37,417 nucleotides of DNA from Pseudomonadota bacterium (lineage in GTDB: Bacteria; Myxococcota_A; Polyangia; Polyangiales; JAKSBK01). Below the pieces are notes generated by a model that was given only the letters and a program-made list of their open reading frames with translations, searched no databases and was not told where the DNA came from. The stretch lies in assembly GCA_022361155.1 (NCBI GenBank), contig JAKSBK010000276.1, forward strand, positions 1 to 37,417, given 5' to 3'. The position numbers were made by a program, and so were the translations under genes. Shown piece after piece: positions 22,896 to 32,672 of the stretch (position 1 is its first letter; each line of letters begins with the position of its first letter).

Positions 22896-23882
22896 TCACG
22901 AGCCCGGCGTGTCCTCGGTGCTCCTTGGGGGCTCGCTGGGTGGTTCATCTTGGTCGCCCTCGCGGCGTGCGGATTCGGGGGGGGTGGCGCCGCTCGGGTG
23001 CTCGGTCGGTTTGGCCCTGTGTTCGCGGCCGGTTTCGGCTCCAGCTGCTTCCGTCACGCGGACCAGCACGACCGTCACGTTGTCGTCGCCGCCCGCATCG
23101 TTGGCAAGCTTGACCAGCGCGTCTGCACAGCGCGCCATATCGCCCGCATGACCGTTACATACCTCGGCGATGTGCCGGTCCTCCACCTGGCCGCACAACC
23201 CGTCCGAGCACAACAGGTAGACGTCGCCCGGCTGGGCGATCTCTTTCGCCAGATCGACCGTGACGACGTCCTGCATGCCCAGCGCGCGCGTGATGACGTT
23301 CTTGGGCAGCAGGTCGGTAGCCTCCTTGGGCAGATTGGGCATCATGGCCAGGTAGTCGTTCACCAGCGAGTGATCCTCGGTCAGGCGAAGCAGGTCGCCA
23401 TCGCGCAAGCGATAGGCTCGACTATCACCCACATGGGCCACGTACACCGCGCCGTTGTCCGCCGAGCACACGATGCCCACCACGGTCGTTCCCATGCCGT
23501 GCACGCTGCGGTCCGAGATCGAAGCGTTGAAGATCTGCTTGTTGGCCGTCATGATCGAGGCCTGCAGCCGGTTTTCCTCGGCGCTCAGCTTGGGGTCGAA
23601 GGGGAACGGCCAGGTGGCATCTTCGTTCTCGGTCGCCTCGAAGAACGACGCCATGGCGTCGGCAGCCATCTTGCTCGCGACGTCTCCCGCCTGGTGCCCG
23701 CCCATGCCGTCGGCCACCACAAAGAGGCCGTGCTTCTCCAGAATCAGGAAGCAGTCTTCGTTGTGCTCTCGCTGAAGCCCGACATCGGTACGCCCTACCG
23801 CGGTAACTTTCATCGGAATCGCCGCGCCGTCCTGGTCGAGCCGAGTGGCCGAGTCGAGCTGGGTAGTGGAGGATAAGACCAC
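22896..23882 (-). CDS. PP2C-type protein phosphatase (Stp1-like)
   Basis: The protein (up to 328 residues) is a bacterial PPM/PP2C serine/threonine phosphatase. The metal-binding and catalytic motifs appear in order: REHNEDCF, VVADGMGGHQAGDVAS, GMGTTVVG, VAHVGDSRAYRL, YLLCSDGLCGQV and GGDDNVTVVLV. The catalytic domain ends near residue 275; a Pro/Glu-rich tail of about 50 residues follows. Two starts are possible: GTG at 23882, or ATG at 23813 giving MKVTAVGRTDVG, which matches the family start more closely. It should reverse Ser/Thr kinase signalling, which is extensive in myxobacteria; no kinase gene of that type is adjacent. The DUF2505 gene follows closely. Confidence 0.92.
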   Translation of the reverse strand: MVLSSTTQLDSATRLDQDGAAIPMKVTAVGRTDVGLQREHNEDCFLILEKHGLFVVADGMGGHQAGDVASKMAADAMASFFEATENEDATWPFPFDPKLSAEENRLQASIMTANKQIFNASISDRSVHGMGTTVVGIVCSADNGAVYVAHVGDSRAYRLRDGDLLRLTEDHSLVNDYLAMMPNLPKEATDLLPKNVITRALGMQDVVTVDLAKEIAQPGDVYLLCSDGLCGQVEDRHIAEVCNGHAGDMARCADALVKLANDAGGDDNVTVVLVRVTEAAGAETGREHRAKPTEHPSGATPPESARREGDQDEPPSEPPRSTEDTPGS

Positions 23883-27251: not shown

Positions 27252-28211
27252 GTGGCCGTCGTGCCGCTAGGGCTGCCGAACGCGCTGCGCTATCTGCTCG
27301 TGCGCATCGGCCGGGCTGTTGCCACGGTCTTCGGGGTCGTCACGCTCGTGTTCTTGATGGTGCGGGCGATTCCAGGAGATCCTGTCGACGCTATCCTCGG
27401 CGATCAGGCAGCGCCCGAGGATCGTGCGGCGCTCCGGCGTGCCCTCGAGCTCGATCGTCCGGTTGCCGAGCAGTACCTGACCTTTGTCGGCCATGTGGCC
27501 GATGGAAGCTTGGGCTACTCGTTTCGAAAGCGCGGCCAGAGCGTCTCCGGCCTGATCGCGCAGGTGCTTCCGGCGACCCTGGTGCTTGCAGTCAGCGCCA
27601 TGGCGGTGGCCTGGCTTATCGCCATCCCGCTGGGTGCGGTGGCCGCCCTGTACAAGGGTCGAAACCTCGACCGGGCAGCGTCCACCGTGGCGATGCTTGG
27701 GATCGCGATTCCCAACATCTGGCTCGGACCGCTGTTGGTGTTGCTCTTTGGGGTGCAGCTACGTTGGCTACCCTTGCCGGGCGATGACCCTGCCCGCATC
27801 GAAGCGTTGATCCTCCCGGCGTTCACGGTGGGTACGGCGCTCGCGGCGATTCTCATGCGCCAGACCCGTGCCTCGTTGCTCGAAGTGCTCGATCAACAGT
27901 ACATCGTGGCCGCCTGGGCGCGTGGCCTATCGCCCGCCCGCGTGGTGTTCAAACATGCCTTACGCAACGCGCTGCTGCCCGTCATGACCGTGGGGGCGGC
28001 TCAATTCGGCGCCATCCTGTCAGGGACGGTGATCGCGGAGAAGATCTTCGAGCGGCCCGGCCTTGGATTGCTCTTCTTGGAAGGCTTCTTTGACCGGGAC
28101 ATCCCCCTGGTGCAGGGTTGCGTGTTGGTCATCGCGGTGATCTACGTAGCGGTCAACCTGCTCGTGGATCTCGCGTACGGCCTGGTCGATCCCAGGGTGC
28201 GCCTGTCATGA
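27252..28211 (+). CDS. ABC transporter permease, DppB/OppB type
   Basis: The 319-residue inner-membrane protein matches the peptide/nickel permease family. The N-terminus (RYLLVRIGRAVATVFGVVTLVF, then RAIPGDPV) is diagnostic, and the DppB-type membrane segments and the EAA loop follow (RARGL-type: YIVAAWARGLSPARVVFKHALRNALLP, with the conserved A-x-x-x-G). It would form a heterodimer with the next gene's product. The two genes overlap by ATGA. The GTG at 27252 lies just after AGGGAGCCC; an in-frame GTG at 27261 is equally possible. Substrate unknown: no binding protein or ATPase gene lies in the window. Confidence 0.92.
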   Translation: MAVVPLGLPNALRYLLVRIGRAVATVFGVVTLVFLMVRAIPGDPVDAILGDQAAPEDRAALRRALELDRPVAEQYLTFVGHVADGSLGYSFRKRGQSVSGLIAQVLPATLVLAVSAMAVAWLIAIPLGAVAALYKGRNLDRAASTVAMLGIAIPNIWLGPLLVLLFGVQLRWLPLPGDDPARIEALILPAFTVGTALAAILMRQTRASLLEVLDQQYIVAAWARGLSPARVVFKHALRNALLPVMTVGAAQFGAILSGTVIAEKIFERPGLGLLFLEGFFDRDIPLVQGCVLVIAVIYVAVNLLVDLAYGLVDPRVRLS

Positions 28212-29080
28212 GGCGCGAGCATGCACCCGCCAGCGGGCGCGAGCACGCCCCCGGAGTGCGGGTCCCGGCCGGGGTCCTTGTGCCCGGGGTGCGGGTCCCG
28301 GTCGGGCTCCTCATCGTTGCGGTCTTCACGCTGGCGGCGCTTTTGGGGCCGTGGTGTGCGCCGTTCTCCCCGAGCCAGATCGACTTGCTTCACGAGTACC
28401 GGGGTCCCGGCGGGCCGCACTGGTTGGGCACGACCGATAACGGCGTGGACATCCTCAGTGTGCTGCTGCATGGGGCGCGTCTTGCCGGCGTTGTGGGGCT
28501 CTTGTCGGTTGGCGCCTCGGTATGCATCGGAACGCTGCTTGGAGCCTACGCCGGCTTGCGGGGAGGCCGGGTAGACCACGTCGTCACCGGGCTGGCCGAC
28601 CTGGTCCAGGCCTTTCCCGCGATCGTGCTGAACATCGCGATCATGGCGCTGGTGGCGCAACCAGGGGTCGTTCACCTGGTCCTGGCGCTTTCCGCCAACG
28701 GTTGGGTGCTGTACGCGCGCGTGGTGCGTTCGCTGGCGTTGTCGCTGCGGGAGCGCGAGTTCGTGCTCGCGGCTCGTGCTCTTGGTGCGTCCGAGGCGCG
28801 TGTCTTGTTCCGGCACGTGCTGCCCAACGTGGCCGGGCCCCTGGTCGTGCAGGCCACCAGCGGTCTGGGAGCCGCCATCCTGGCCGAGTCGACCCTGTCC
28901 TTCCTCGGCCTGGGGCCGGGTAAGACGGCTTCGTGGGGCGCCTTGCTCGATCAAGGCAGCGCGGTGCTTCTGCGCTTTCCGCACGTGGCCCTGATCGCGG
29001 GAGGGACCATCGCCGTCACCGTGCTGGGCTTCAACCTGGCCGGGGACTGGCTGCGTGACCGCCTTGACCCCACGGGGTGA
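28208..29080 (+). CDS. ABC transporter permease, DppC/OppC type
   Basis: The 290-residue permease pairs with the DppB-type protein. Family marks are PHWLGTTDNGVDILSVLLHGAR, the DLVQAFPAI segment, and the EAA loop EFVLAARALGASEARVLFRHVLPN, followed by AESTLSFLGLG and the C-terminal GDWLRDRLDP. The N-terminal 30 residues are unusual: they contain doubled short motifs (REHAPASG/REHAPGVRV, then GVRVPAG/GVRVPVG) encoded by GTGCGGGTCCCGG repeats, so this end may have grown by slippage. The operon ends here; the next gene is an unrelated kinase-like protein, so the ATPases must be supplied from elsewhere. Confidence 0.9.
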   Translation: MRREHAPASGREHAPGVRVPAGVLVPGVRVPVGLLIVAVFTLAALLGPWCAPFSPSQIDLLHEYRGPGGPHWLGTTDNGVDILSVLLHGARLAGVVGLLSVGASVCIGTLLGAYAGLRGGRVDHVVTGLADLVQAFPAIVLNIAIMALVAQPGVVHLVLALSANGWVLYARVVRSLALSLREREFVLAARALGASEARVLFRHVLPNVAGPLVVQATSGLGAAILAESTLSFLGLGPGKTASWGALLDQGSAVLLRFPHVALIAGGTIAVTVLGFNLAGDWLRDRLDPTG

Positions 29081-29260: not shown

Positions 29261-30811
29261 TTGCGGCTGGAGGCTGGTGACCGATGCGGGCGCGATCGTC
29301 GCTGCGTAGTTGTCGGTCGCACCCGCCGGAGAGGCGACGGACGACCCATGTTGCCGGGAGTGGTTGCAGTTGTGGATACCAGAGTAGCCGCGCTCCTTAG
29401 GGCCCGTCCCAGAACAACTGGCCGAGACCGGCCGTGCCGGGTGGATGCGATTCGCCGGCGCGCCCGGAGGAAAAACCGTAATAATAGCAGCGCCATTGCG
29501 AGGACGAAAGCCGCGAGCGCGCCGCCCTGCACGGCCGCAACCGAGCGAGCTGTTCTTGGATGGGCCCTTAGCTTGGTCGCCGCCTCGAGCCTGGTCGCCC
29601 CGACCGCCTGTGCGCAGATTCCTCGGGACGGCCCGTGCGTCGATGCGGCGGCGGCCGCGTGGGGGCCGGGCTGCCGGGAGCCGGAGCCGTCGCGGGCCGA
29701 CCCGCAATCACCCGGGCCCGATCCGACTGGCGAGGACGGGCTGCACAACCCGGGGCGGCGGCCGGTGCATCCGAAGGCTCCTTGTCGATCCAGGCACGCC
29801 AGCCCGGAAACTCGGCTCGAGCTTCCGGTCGGTTGTAGGCCGAGCTTGCCCCAGCGGCCCTGGCCCGGCAACGATTCGGGGTTTCTCGGAATGCCCGAGG
29901 AAGCGGTGCTGGATCGCCTGATCCAGGGCGAGGTGGCGAAAGTGCAGCCGGGTCGTGGAGGACGCAGCTTGGCGTTTCGGCTGACGCTCGAGGACGGAAC
30001 CCAGGGCTACTTCAAGCCGGAGCAGAGCTTTTCCGGCGCCCTGTGGTTTGCCGAGGTGGCTGCTTACCATCTTGACCGCGCCCTCGGTCTGAGGCGCGTG
30101 CCGCCGGTGGTCACGCGCCGCCTGCCCTGGTCGCTGCTGCGCAGTGCCGCTGCGCGCAATCCCCATCGAGACGAAATCGTCATCGACGCCGAAGGCTACG
30201 TGCGCGGCGCGTTCATCTGGTGGCTGCCCCGGAAACTGGCGCGTTTGAATACGCCTCCCGAATGGGAACGTTGGTTGCGCATCCGGCCCTGGGGCTACTG
30301 GCACGTGACCCCTTACCAGCGGCCTCGGCTGTACGTCGAGGCGCTGCGGCGACGCAACAGGGGCATCTTGCCGCACAAGCCGCGCAGGCGGGCGCCTGAG
30401 CAGCCCGATCCGCCGGAGCGAGCCGCAGAGCTGTCCGACATGGCCGTGTTCGACTACCTGACGCTCAACATCGACCGTTGGGGGGGCAACAACGTCAACG
30501 TGCTCACCTACGGCCCGGAAGGTCCCCTGATCTTCCTCGACAACGCGGCCGGCTTTGCCAAGGGCCGCCAGCAAAACGGCTTGATGGAGGACCGCCTGCA
30601 GGTGGTGCAGCGCTTCCGTGCCCAGACGATCGAACGCGTGCGCAGTCTCGACCTGGCAGACCTCAAGGAACGACTCGAGCGCGAAGCCCACGGCCCGCTG
30701 CTCGACCAGCATCGCTGGCAGGGATTGCTGCAGCGGCGCACCGCGCTGCTCGAGCACGTGGCCGAGCTTGAAGAGGCTCACGGTAGTGCCGCGGTCTTGG
30801 CGTGGCCTTAG
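29261..30811 (+). CDS. Four-jointed/Fam20-like secreted kinase (start uncertain)
   Basis: Numbered from the TTG at 29261 the frame has 516 residues. The conserved domain (about 210-500) resembles animal Four-jointed (FJX1) proteins of the Fam20/HipA kinase clan. A candidate ATP lysine is in GYFKPEQ (K252) and a Glu in FAEVAAYHLDRALGL (E265). The catalytic stretch is VFDYLTLNIDRWGGN (D398, D405), with the second metal ligand in LIFLDNAAGF (D427). A hydrophobic stretch (WALSLVAASSLVAPTAC, about 101-117) looks like a secretion or lipoprotein signal, so the protein probably acts outside the cytosol. Residues 1-95 overlap dispersed repeat C and are doubtful; the minimal start is ATG at 29891. Fam20-type members phosphorylate proteins or sugars; the substrate here is unknown. 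Confidence 0.75.
   Translation: MRLEAGDRCGRDRRCVVVGRTRRRGDGRPMLPGVVAVVDTRVAALLRARPRTTGRDRPCRVDAIRRRARRKNRNNSSAIARTKAASAPPCTAATERAVLGWALSLVAASSLVAPTACAQIPRDGPCVDAAAAAWGPGCREPEPSRADPQSPGPDPTGEDGLHNPGRRPVHPKAPCRSRHASPETRLELPVGCRPSLPQRPWPGNDSGFLGMPEEAVLDRLIQGEVAKVQPGRGGRSLAFRLTLEDGTQGYFKPEQSFSGALWFAEVAAYHLDRALGLRRVPPVVTRRLPWSLLRSAAARNPHRDEIVIDAEGYVRGAFIWWLPRKLARLNTPPEWERWLRIRPWGYWHVTPYQRPRLYVEALRRRNRGILPHKPRRRAPEQPDPPERAAELSDMAVFDYLTLNIDRWGGNNVNVLTYGPEGPLIFLDNAAGFAKGRQQNGLMEDRLQVVQRFRAQTIERVRSLDLADLKERLEREAHGPLLDQHRWQGLLQRRTALLEHVAELEEAHGSAAVLAWP
29423..29511 (+). repeat. Dispersed repeat, copy C
   Basis: This is the most complete copy. Its first 57 bases match copy B (18992-19047) and its last 55 match copy A (11983-12052). 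On the minus strand copies A and C both read AAFVL...ALL..LRxFLRARR, a hydrophobic stretch ending in arginines. It lies in the uncertain 5' region of the kinase-like gene. Confidence 0.65.
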
Positions 30812-30918: not shown

Positions 30919-31107
30919 ATGCCCAGCAGAGACTCCCTCCATGCCCTCGTCGATGACCTCGCCGAGCAAGAGCTTGTGGCAGCCAAACGCTACCTTCATA
31001 TAGGTAACGCCTGGCGCCAACGGCCATCGCCGTATGAAAGCGTGCGCGGCGGGAACAGCGGCGGTTTTGCGAACGACAAACCCTTAGCGGTTGCGGCGGC
31101 AAGGTGA
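30919..31107 (+). CDS. Small soluble protein, LVDxL-type helix-rich
   Basis: The 62-residue protein begins MPSRDSLHALVDDLAEQEL and continues VAAKRYLHIGNAW. This is a short amphipathic pattern (LhxLVDxLxExELxxAxRYL) seen in many small bacterial proteins, some of which are antitoxin-like. The tail is Gly/Asn/Ala rich. Its stop codon lies 6 bases before the GH5 start codon and just overlaps that gene's ribosome binding site, so coupling is possible. Function unknown. Confidence 0.6.
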   Translation: MPSRDSLHALVDDLAEQELVAAKRYLHIGNAWRQRPSPYESVRGGNSGGFANDKPLAVAAAR

Positions 31108-31112
31108 GTAAG

Positions 31113-32672
31113 ATGAGGCATGTGTTCTTTTTGACTGGTCTCCTCGTATGCAATTCGACCTATGCTCAGATAAGTGTCGATGATTTCAATGGATTTAACT
31201 GGGCCGATCGGCGGGATAATTTCGTAGACGGTATAATTGAGGTGTCAGGGATGAACGGTGGCATTACTGACGTGGAAATCGACGCCCTCGCCGACCGCGT
31301 ATGCAGTGCATTCAAAACGATAGGGCGCGGGAACACGGTAAGGTTCCCCGTAAACGCCGCGACCGTGTCGAACGTCTCATGGTGGACTAAGTACAAGCGC
31401 CTCATCGACAGGGTCATCGGTGTGCACGGCATGAAGGTCATCCTGGCCTATTGGGAGGCGAGCAACTCCAAGGACGGCCGCGTCGACAATTCCAATAACT
31501 GGAAGAAGATGTGGATGACGATCGACGCCGAATACGGCAACAATCCCATGGTCTACATGGAGCCCATGAACGAGCCGCACGGCTACAGTCGGAACGCTCT
31601 GCTTGATCTCTATCGGGACTTCCGGAGATTCATGACCAACCTCCCGGCCGAACGCACGATCTGTGACGGCACCGGGTACTCACAGAACGTTGCTGCGATC
31701 GGGGATGATCCGCGCGTGGCCGGCTGCCTGTTCAGTTTCCACCTGTACCACTGGTTCGGTTCCCAAACGGGTGAACAGGGCTGGACCGATAGGTTCAATC
31801 GGGGGGTCGGCAAATTCGCCTCGCGCACGATCGTGACTGAATGGGGATCGGAATGTACCCAGGGTCATGACTACAGCATGGCGAGCAGCGATAACAAGAT
31901 CAGCTATATCCGGGCGATGTCAAGGAGGATCAACGAGCTGAAGATGGGGAGCGTCTATTGGCCCGGGATCCGTGACTACGACGATTGGTTCCGCATCTTC
32001 GATAGTAGTGCCAATCCCACTACGGTCACGAACCAGTCGATGCTGGAGCGGATTCATCTGTCGTTTGGTGACACGAGCAGCGCGGGCAGCGGTGGCTTCG
32101 GCGGCCATTCCGGGAGCGCGGGCGTTGGCGGGGGTGGTGTAGGCGGAGCCACCGGTGGCGCGGGACTGGGAGCTTCCGGGGTGGGGGGCGTGGCCGGCGT
32201 CACGGCGGCGGGCGGCGGACCTGCGGGGATGGGAAGCGCGGGAACAGCCGGTGGTGTGGCAGGCACGTTGGGCATGGCGGGCGTCGGGGGAGTAGCTGGG
32301 CTCGCCGGGGCAGCGGCCGGAACAGCCGGTGGTGCGGGTGCGGCCGGTAGCGACGCAGGCCTGCCGGCAGCAGGCGGTGCTGTGGCGCCGGACCCGGCTC
32401 CCCGCGCGAGCGCGGCGATACCTCAGGAGCAGGGTTGCGGTTGCAGCGTCCCGGGTGGAAGGGGCAGGAAGCCAGGGTGGCAGGCCTGGCTGCTTGCCGC
32501 GCTCGGTGCAGCGCTTGTGGTGCGGCGGCGGCGGAAACCGAAAGAAGTAAGAACAGGACGGCCGTTTTTGGGGATTGGCGGCGTCGCTTCGCTCAGGCGG
32601 CCCGCCTCCGCAATCGGACCTCGGCCTCCGCATCGGCCCTCGCCTTCGGCCTCGGGCTCGCTCCGACGATAA
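31113..32672 (+). CDS. GH5-type glycoside hydrolase with Gly/Ala linker and MYXO-CTERM tail
   Basis: The 519-residue protein has a signal peptide (MRHVFFLTGLLVCNSTYA) and a GH5-like TIM barrel at about 20-315. The acid/base glutamate is in YMEPMNEPHGY and the nucleophile in IVTEWGSEC, as in cellulases and related beta-glycanases. A Gly/Ala/Val linker of about 100 residues follows, then QGCGCSVPG, a membrane helix (AWLLAALGAALVV) and RRRRK: a MYXO-CTERM anchor. The frame runs 44 residues past the arginines, which is unusual. Start ATG 31113 follows AAGGTGAG by about 5 bases; GTG 31104 is an alternative. The catalytic part is visibly less GC-rich than its surroundings, suggesting transfer of that domain. 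The polysaccharide substrate is unknown. Confidence 0.85.
   Translation: MRHVFFLTGLLVCNSTYAQISVDDFNGFNWADRRDNFVDGIIEVSGMNGGITDVEIDALADRVCSAFKTIGRGNTVRFPVNAATVSNVSWWTKYKRLIDRVIGVHGMKVILAYWEASNSKDGRVDNSNNWKKMWMTIDAEYGNNPMVYMEPMNEPHGYSRNALLDLYRDFRRFMTNLPAERTICDGTGYSQNVAAIGDDPRVAGCLFSFHLYHWFGSQTGEQGWTDRFNRGVGKFASRTIVTEWGSECTQGHDYSMASSDNKISYIRAMSRRINELKMGSVYWPGIRDYDDWFRIFDSSANPTTVTNQSMLERIHLSFGDTSSAGSGGFGGHSGSAGVGGGGVGGATGGAGLGASGVGGVAGVTAAGGGPAGMGSAGTAGGVAGTLGMAGVGGVAGLAGAAAGTAGGAGAAGSDAGLPAAGGAVAPDPAPRASAAIPQEQGCGCSVPGGRGRKPGWQAWLLAALGAALVVRRRRKPKEVRTGRPFLGIGGVASLRRPASAIGPRPPHRPSPSASGSLRR

Follow-up and report, generated by a model that had tools for sequence, protein, structure and literature searches.

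The open reading frame (ORF) at positions 29261-30811 on the plus strand of the window, the 37,417-nucleotide stretch of DNA from a myxobacterium-type bacterium that we analyzed, specifies a Fam20/Four-jointed-clade kinase related to animal Golgi enzymes, an assignment confirmed by sequence profiles. With a probability that we place near two in three, this ORF represents a family of exported, protein-directed kinases of the Fam20/Four-jointed type that is tied in related genera to a putrescine operon. The proposal builds on features computed here, namely the family assignment, catalytic residues that do not vary, N-termini of export type among the orthologues, and a recurrent gene order in which the kinase precedes genes for agmatine deiminase (aguA) and N-carbamoylputrescine amidase (aguB).

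A bacterial member of the Fam20/Four-jointed clade

The ORF comprises 516 numbered residues, and its conserved Fam20/Four-jointed-type kinase domain runs from a DSGFLG sequence to the stop codon (residues 205-516; 29873-30808, plus strand). The domain can be aligned from end to end with those of 24 orthologues, to which it is 34-54% identical. In Pfam, the ORF matches the Fam20C model PF06702 at E 5.5e-7 with 29.9 bits (32.0 bits for the domain), above the curated gathering cut-off of 26.8 bits, and the same model is matched at E ≤ 1e-3 by 24 of the 25 orthologues. FAM198 and HipA_2 are also matched by the ORF, both below their cut-offs (11.1 bits versus 27 for HipA_2).

When the single sequence was compared with solved structures using phmmer, FAM20C was recovered at E 4.5e-9, and the only significant matches were FAM20C, FAM20A, Hydra Fam20B, and C. 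elegans Fam20 (ceFam20). A profile of the 25 orthologues matched FAM20C (E 2.9e-29), zebrafish Fam20C (3e-25), ceFam20 (2.7e-23), FAM20A (8e-23), and Hydra Fam20B (2.4e-20) in the PDB, a search in which no kinase family other than Fam20 was significant and nothing else fell below 0.1. A wider, 21-sequence profile gave the same outcome, with Fam20 kinases alone significant among solved structures. The first-pass annotation had arrived at a Four-jointed/Fam20 identity by reading the motifs GYFKPE, FAEVAAYHLDRALGL, FDYLTLNIDR, and LIFLDNAAGF; all lie in frame and carry the residue numbers it gave them, and the identity itself is now backed by the Pfam and PDB profile searches. An AlphaFold2 model computed from a three-sequence alignment (the window protein, L044, and L045) has a mean pLDDT of 42.7, too low for the model to speak for or against the fold.

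Conservation of the active site

Four residues had been named beforehand as conserved, and each is invariant across the 25 orthologues. K252 of GYFKPE (30014-30016) is the predicted ATP-anchoring lysine of strand β3 and aligns with the FKP of FAM20C, and E265 in FAEVAAYHLDRALGL (30053-30055), invariant also in the wider set, corresponds to the helix C glutamate of canonical kinases. D405 of NIDRW (30473-30475) is the predicted catalytic base, equivalent to the aspartate of NMDR/NQDR in FAM20C/ceFam20, and D427 of LDNAAGF (30539-30541) is the predicted metal-binding, DFG-type aspartate, which aligns with LDNGRGF of FAM20C; all four codons lie on the plus strand, and in the A1 numbering the residues are K48, E61, D201, and D223. 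The orthologue alignment places D405 and D427 in register with the NxDR and LDN/H motifs of the solved Fam20s. The glycines of the GxGG loop, N403, R406, W407, and D398 are likewise invariant in the 25 orthologues. By alignment, D398 and R406 correspond to human FAM20C D451 and R459, both of which are listed as sites of Raine syndrome changes (PMC7948968).

The chain numbering of ceFam20 is offset by 59, so that its helix C glutamate is Glu218 and the arginine of its LDHGR motif is Arg390, as these residues are named in the literature (PMC5865150). In animal Fam20s the lysine is paired with a special acid, ceFam20 Glu213 or hmFam20 Asp152, whose position is occupied by Ala, Gly, or other residues in the bacterial orthologues; with this acid replaced, its role would be expected to fall to the canonical helix C glutamate.

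Relationship to the animal secretory kinases

The bacterial family has in common with FAM20C, the Golgi casein kinase, the lysine, the helix C glutamate, the catalytic aspartate, and the metal aspartate, but it is missing the conserved disulfides of the FAM20C type. Whereas the animal Fam20s proper carry four conserved disulfides and the Glu213/Asp152 acid, the bacterial proteins have neither, and the window domain and most orthologues contain no cysteine at all. The DRH of FAM20C is DRW in the bacterial family, in which the loop between β3 and helix C is short. The clash motifs of Fam20C (D-F-F-Y-F-S/T-D, CxYYC, and an arginine after LDHG) are absent from the 25-orthologue alignment, Ala or Gly standing in place of the arginine three residues past the metal aspartate, and for this reason we do not file the kinase as a FAM20C orthologue.

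These motifs exclude a disaccharide from Fam20C, and the absence of the CxYYC loop and the arginine is one of several observations that would fit the main rival to a protein-directed enzyme, an exported, Fam20B-like kinase of glycans or small molecules that acts on a sugar of the envelope or of an exopolysaccharide. Among the Fam20 enzymes of animals, the basal ones are xylosylkinases (PMC5865150), and in the window the kinase gene precedes a GH5 glycanase gene. By profile, the bacterial kinase shares its fold family with FAM20B, the glycosaminoglycan xylosylkinase (see the Hydra Fam20B match above). However, the FAM20B residues that contact Gal-Xyl are missing as well, with tryptophan, two residues after the catalytic aspartate, at the position of His301 and Ala or Gly where Lys321 would be; the GH5 neighbor is not conserved; and the C-lobe appears closest to that of FJX1, a protein kinase. 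We regard a glycan or small-molecule kinase as unlikely, and favor a protein-directed enzyme.

The pattern FDYLT.N.DR ... FLDN.AG is found in the C-lobes of both the window kinase and Four-jointed/FJX1, the animal Golgi kinase of cadherin domains. In Smith-Waterman comparisons, the window C-lobe gave z scores of 13.0 against FAM20C, 11.6 against ceFam20, and 17.5 against a sequence that we take to be the human FJX1 C-lobe, verified at two peptides; FAM20C scored 6.3 against the same FJX1 sequence. The two peptides, RLVSNLFSL (304-312) and ELAALADPHAQLLQRRLDFL (401-420), are published (PMC4633155), both fit its letters, and each predicts the position of the other exactly. Since the remainder of the segment is unverified, the apparent greater closeness of the window C-lobe to FJX1 than to FAM20C is a strong lead and not a test. 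No FJX1 structure was found in the solved-structure set. The bacterial kinase is shorter than FJX1, without the insert that follows NxDR, and differs also at its N-terminus, where the type II Golgi anchor of Four-jointed/FJX1 contrasts with a Sec- or lipoprotein-type signal in the bacterial family.

Among bacterial proteins of the wider Fam20/CotH group, the CotH spore-coat kinases act on proteins of surface structures (PMC9758233, PMC7821199); CotH was not among the Pfam matches of the window kinase or its orthologues.

Phylogeny and distribution

Phylogenetic analysis attaches the animal sequences beside the bacterial subfamily of the window kinase and not beside a second bacterial subfamily, a split supported at 98/93 in the whole-domain tree. 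In a tree of the C-lobe, FJX1 groups with the animal Fam20s at 90/91, where long branches meet, and the alternative grouping of FJX1 with the bacterial sequences is not rejected (p-AU 0.376). The second subfamily, which leans toward HipA_2, is widespread in the phylum, and the window genome encodes a paralogue belonging to it (L014, contig C443, 5280-6140, minus strand).

Of the 379 genomes sampled from the phylum, 104 contain a kinase match at E ≤ 1e-3 when both subfamilies are counted, and the close subfamily is present in several families of the order. A scan of a plasmid collection returned no kinase match, scans of viral contigs with two alignments returned one marginal fragment only, and a scan of one contig collection returned two loci, both labeled Deltaproteobacteria. 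The locus on JAADHO010000282.1 (L045) and locus L055 (genome G028) seem to come from one contig and were counted once. In two distant relatives (L079 and L080), a formylglycine-generating/sulfatase-modifying-factor domain (PF03781) precedes the kinase domain within one ORF, and in a third (L081) a TPR match takes its place.

Gene neighborhood

Clustering of the ORFs around kinase genes revealed a recurring arrangement in which the kinase is followed on the same strand by a protein of ~332 residues and then by one of ~290 residues. The first matches agmatine deiminase (TIGR03380) at E 1e-66 and 2e-77 in the two proteins tested, both of which score under the NCBIfam equivalog cut-off; the second matches N-carbamoylputrescine amidase (TIGR03381), with one of the two proteins tested above the cut-off. 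These models are among the best family matches of the two neighbors. Of 29 orthologous loci, 17, spanning 9 genera and 4 families, have aguA-aguB shortly after the kinase. In 14 of them no more than ~60 bp separate the kinase stop codon from the start of aguA on the same strand, in the other 3 the distance is up to 2.1 kb, and aguB follows in 16 of the 17. Neither the window locus nor 8 orthologous loci with enough downstream sequence show the linkage, and its distribution on the tree requires at least 8 changes.

The window genome has lost this linkage, and its aguA-aguB genes lie on other contigs with no kinase adjoining them. Two contig ends in this genome (L095 and L096, on C162 and C158) share 388 bases of aguA that are 92% identical, an overlap that points to a mixture of strains, a duplication, or a break in the assembly.

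The surroundings cited earlier for the window kinase, a transporter operon before it and a glycanase after it, are real, and comprise oppB-oppC-type permease genes (27252-29080, plus strand; BPD_transp_1 in both, OppC_N in the second) and a GH5 glycanase gene with a MYXO-CTERM tail (31104-32672, plus strand; PF00150, E 4.8e-13; TIGR03901). They are nonetheless incidental: neither oppBC nor GH5 occurs in any orthologue neighborhood cluster, and as no orthologue shares them, both were rejected as functional partners. A PP2C-type protein phosphatase gene (22896-23882, minus strand) lies ~5.4 kb upstream of the kinase ORF, and the orthologues give no sign of linkage to such a gene.

Putative export signals in the family

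Putative signal peptides were called by a hydropathy heuristic with shuffled controls. In 26 of 29 other loci of the subfamily, the 110 residues before the domain include a 14-residue segment whose hydropathy reaches 1.9 or more, in 21 of these at p ≤ 0.05 relative to shuffles, and the three loci under the mark have a lipobox-type cysteine motif. Lipoboxes, such as LAFAAGC, LVIGC, and LTVAAC, accompany many of the orthologue segments and are followed by a Pro/Ala-rich, low-complexity linker. Export of the kinase family, as predicted from these N-termini, is thus well supported.

These segments also weigh on the alternative of an ordinary HipA-like kinase that stays in the cytoplasm, with chance hydrophobic stretches encoded by GC-rich upstream DNA passing for signals. 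The bacterial kinase shares a broad clan with HipA/HipA_2, and the weak HipA_2 match improves in the sister subfamily; the N-terminus of the window copy consists of repeat DNA; and the products of the conserved neighbors aguA and aguB are cytoplasmic enzymes. Yet signal-like segments, with lipoboxes and low-complexity linkers, recur at the same place in nearly all orthologues, Fam20C scores exceed those of HipA_2 by many orders of magnitude, and the conserved neighborhood is devoid of a HipB-like gene, none having been found among the conserved neighbors of the kinase orthologues. A cytoplasmic HipA-like kinase is accordingly highly improbable, and export of the family is the more probable reading.

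The N-terminus of the window copy

Secretion, which the first-pass annotation had proposed for the window protein, is well supported for the family, with its predicted Sec- and lipoprotein-type signals; it does not carry over with the same force to the window copy, whose 5′ end has been overwritten by repeats. An interspersed, MITE-like repeat of ~176 bp with terminal inverted repeats of ~21 bp (CCTTAGGGCCCGTCCCAGAACA ... TGTTCTTGGATGGGCCCTTAG, the inverted ends being seen in copies) occupies 29396-29571 and overlaps the 5′ part of the ORF, corresponding to residues 46-104. The genome contains ~14 more near-full-length copies at 73-84% identity and many partial ones; other copies measure ~190 bp. 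A second interspersed repeat of ~110 bp (29728-29837, residues ~157-192), of which the genome has five or more further copies at 75-78% identity, separates the hydrophobic segment from the kinase domain. We rejected the idea that the N-terminal ~200 residues form a protein domain, because the genomic matches of this region are repeats.

The hydrophobic segment noted previously before the domain does exist, as AVLGWALSLVAASSLVAPTACA at residues 97-118 (29549-29614, plus strand), and is a possible signal peptide with a hydropathy of 1.69, a value equaled or exceeded by 2.5% of shuffles. Its first 8 residues (one-third) are, however, the end of the ~176-bp repeat, which makes export of the window copy uncertain; the remainder, LVAASSLVAPTACA, is located where a signal peptide would be. 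Apart from a TTG within the segment, the nearest in-frame ATG, GTG, or TTG is GTG 29441. The conserved domain begins with the FLG motif at residue ~205 (29873), upstream of ATG 29891; before the motif, the DNA is not a conserved coding region. Codon-position composition is coding-like, with second positions low in G+C, no earlier than about residue 211. The start of the ORF is judged not to be a gene start. Either the element inserted into a signal peptide and the frame still supplies one, for example from GTG 29441, or export of this copy would be impaired.

A stronger version of the second option is that the window copy is a decaying relic, its operon and signal peptide lost to repeat insertion, which yields no functional exported protein. 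The extension of the first repeat into the hydrophobic segment, the presence of the second in the linker, the position of the conserved FLG motif upstream of the sole nearby ATG, and the separation of the kinase from aguAB would all be expected of such a relic. The domain is nevertheless intact, with every catalytic residue in place and a coding-type codon composition (G+C of 0.74/0.51/0.79 by codon position), and neither repeat interrupts the reading frame. We consider decay of this copy rather unlikely, although with the linkage lost and the 5′ end overwritten it may be mistargeted. This reading is about the window copy and is compatible with our preferred explanation of the family.

Proposed mechanism and implications

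Under the preferred explanation, the family kinase would be exported by the Sec pathway, often to be anchored as a lipoprotein, and would act as a Mn/Mg-dependent Ser/Thr kinase, most likely outside the cytoplasm, as its family suggests. The phosphate would come from a metal-bound nucleotide held by K252 and E265, with D427 binding the metal and D405 serving as the base, and would be transferred to Ser or Thr of envelope or secreted proteins, a glycan being the less likely acceptor. In related genera, we infer from the gene order that the kinase is co-transcribed with the agmatine deiminase and N-carbamoylputrescine amidase genes, and this apparent single transcript would probably tie use of the kinase to conditions in which putrescine is made. 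The mechanism is weakest on two points, namely where an extracytoplasmic kinase would obtain its nucleotide and what the putrescine genes mean. The periplasm does not ordinarily provide ATP. A more specific version, which we regard as doubtful, holds that these enzymes are Polyangiales-type surface lipoproteins, co-expressed with putrescine synthesis, that use outside ATP, for example from lysed prey, to phosphorylate proteins of the envelope or of neighboring cells, and that they are ancestral or sister to the animal secretory kinases.

A study of the Legionella kinome described the FAM20 cluster as eukaryotic- or Metazoa-specific (PMC9758233), and reviews of Fam20 describe animals only. In literature on Fam20 with myxobacteria, agmatine deiminase, or bacterial secreted kinases, in which subscription papers were thinly covered, no description of the bacterial branch was found; given that coverage, and because the Pfam model already recognizes such proteins, an unseen mention is possible.

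The export signals of the relatives and their usual operon with putrescine genes suggest that bacteria may have their own counterpart to the extracellular phosphorylation of animals. With its wide distribution and export-type signals, the bacterial branch is a candidate outgroup for the origin of the secretory-pathway kinases, and offers a direct test of kinase reactions beyond the bacterial cytoplasm. As a disulfide-free enzyme, it can be made in E. coli for studies of mechanism and structure, and the conserved kinase-aguA-aguB gene order provides an unexpected handle on its function.
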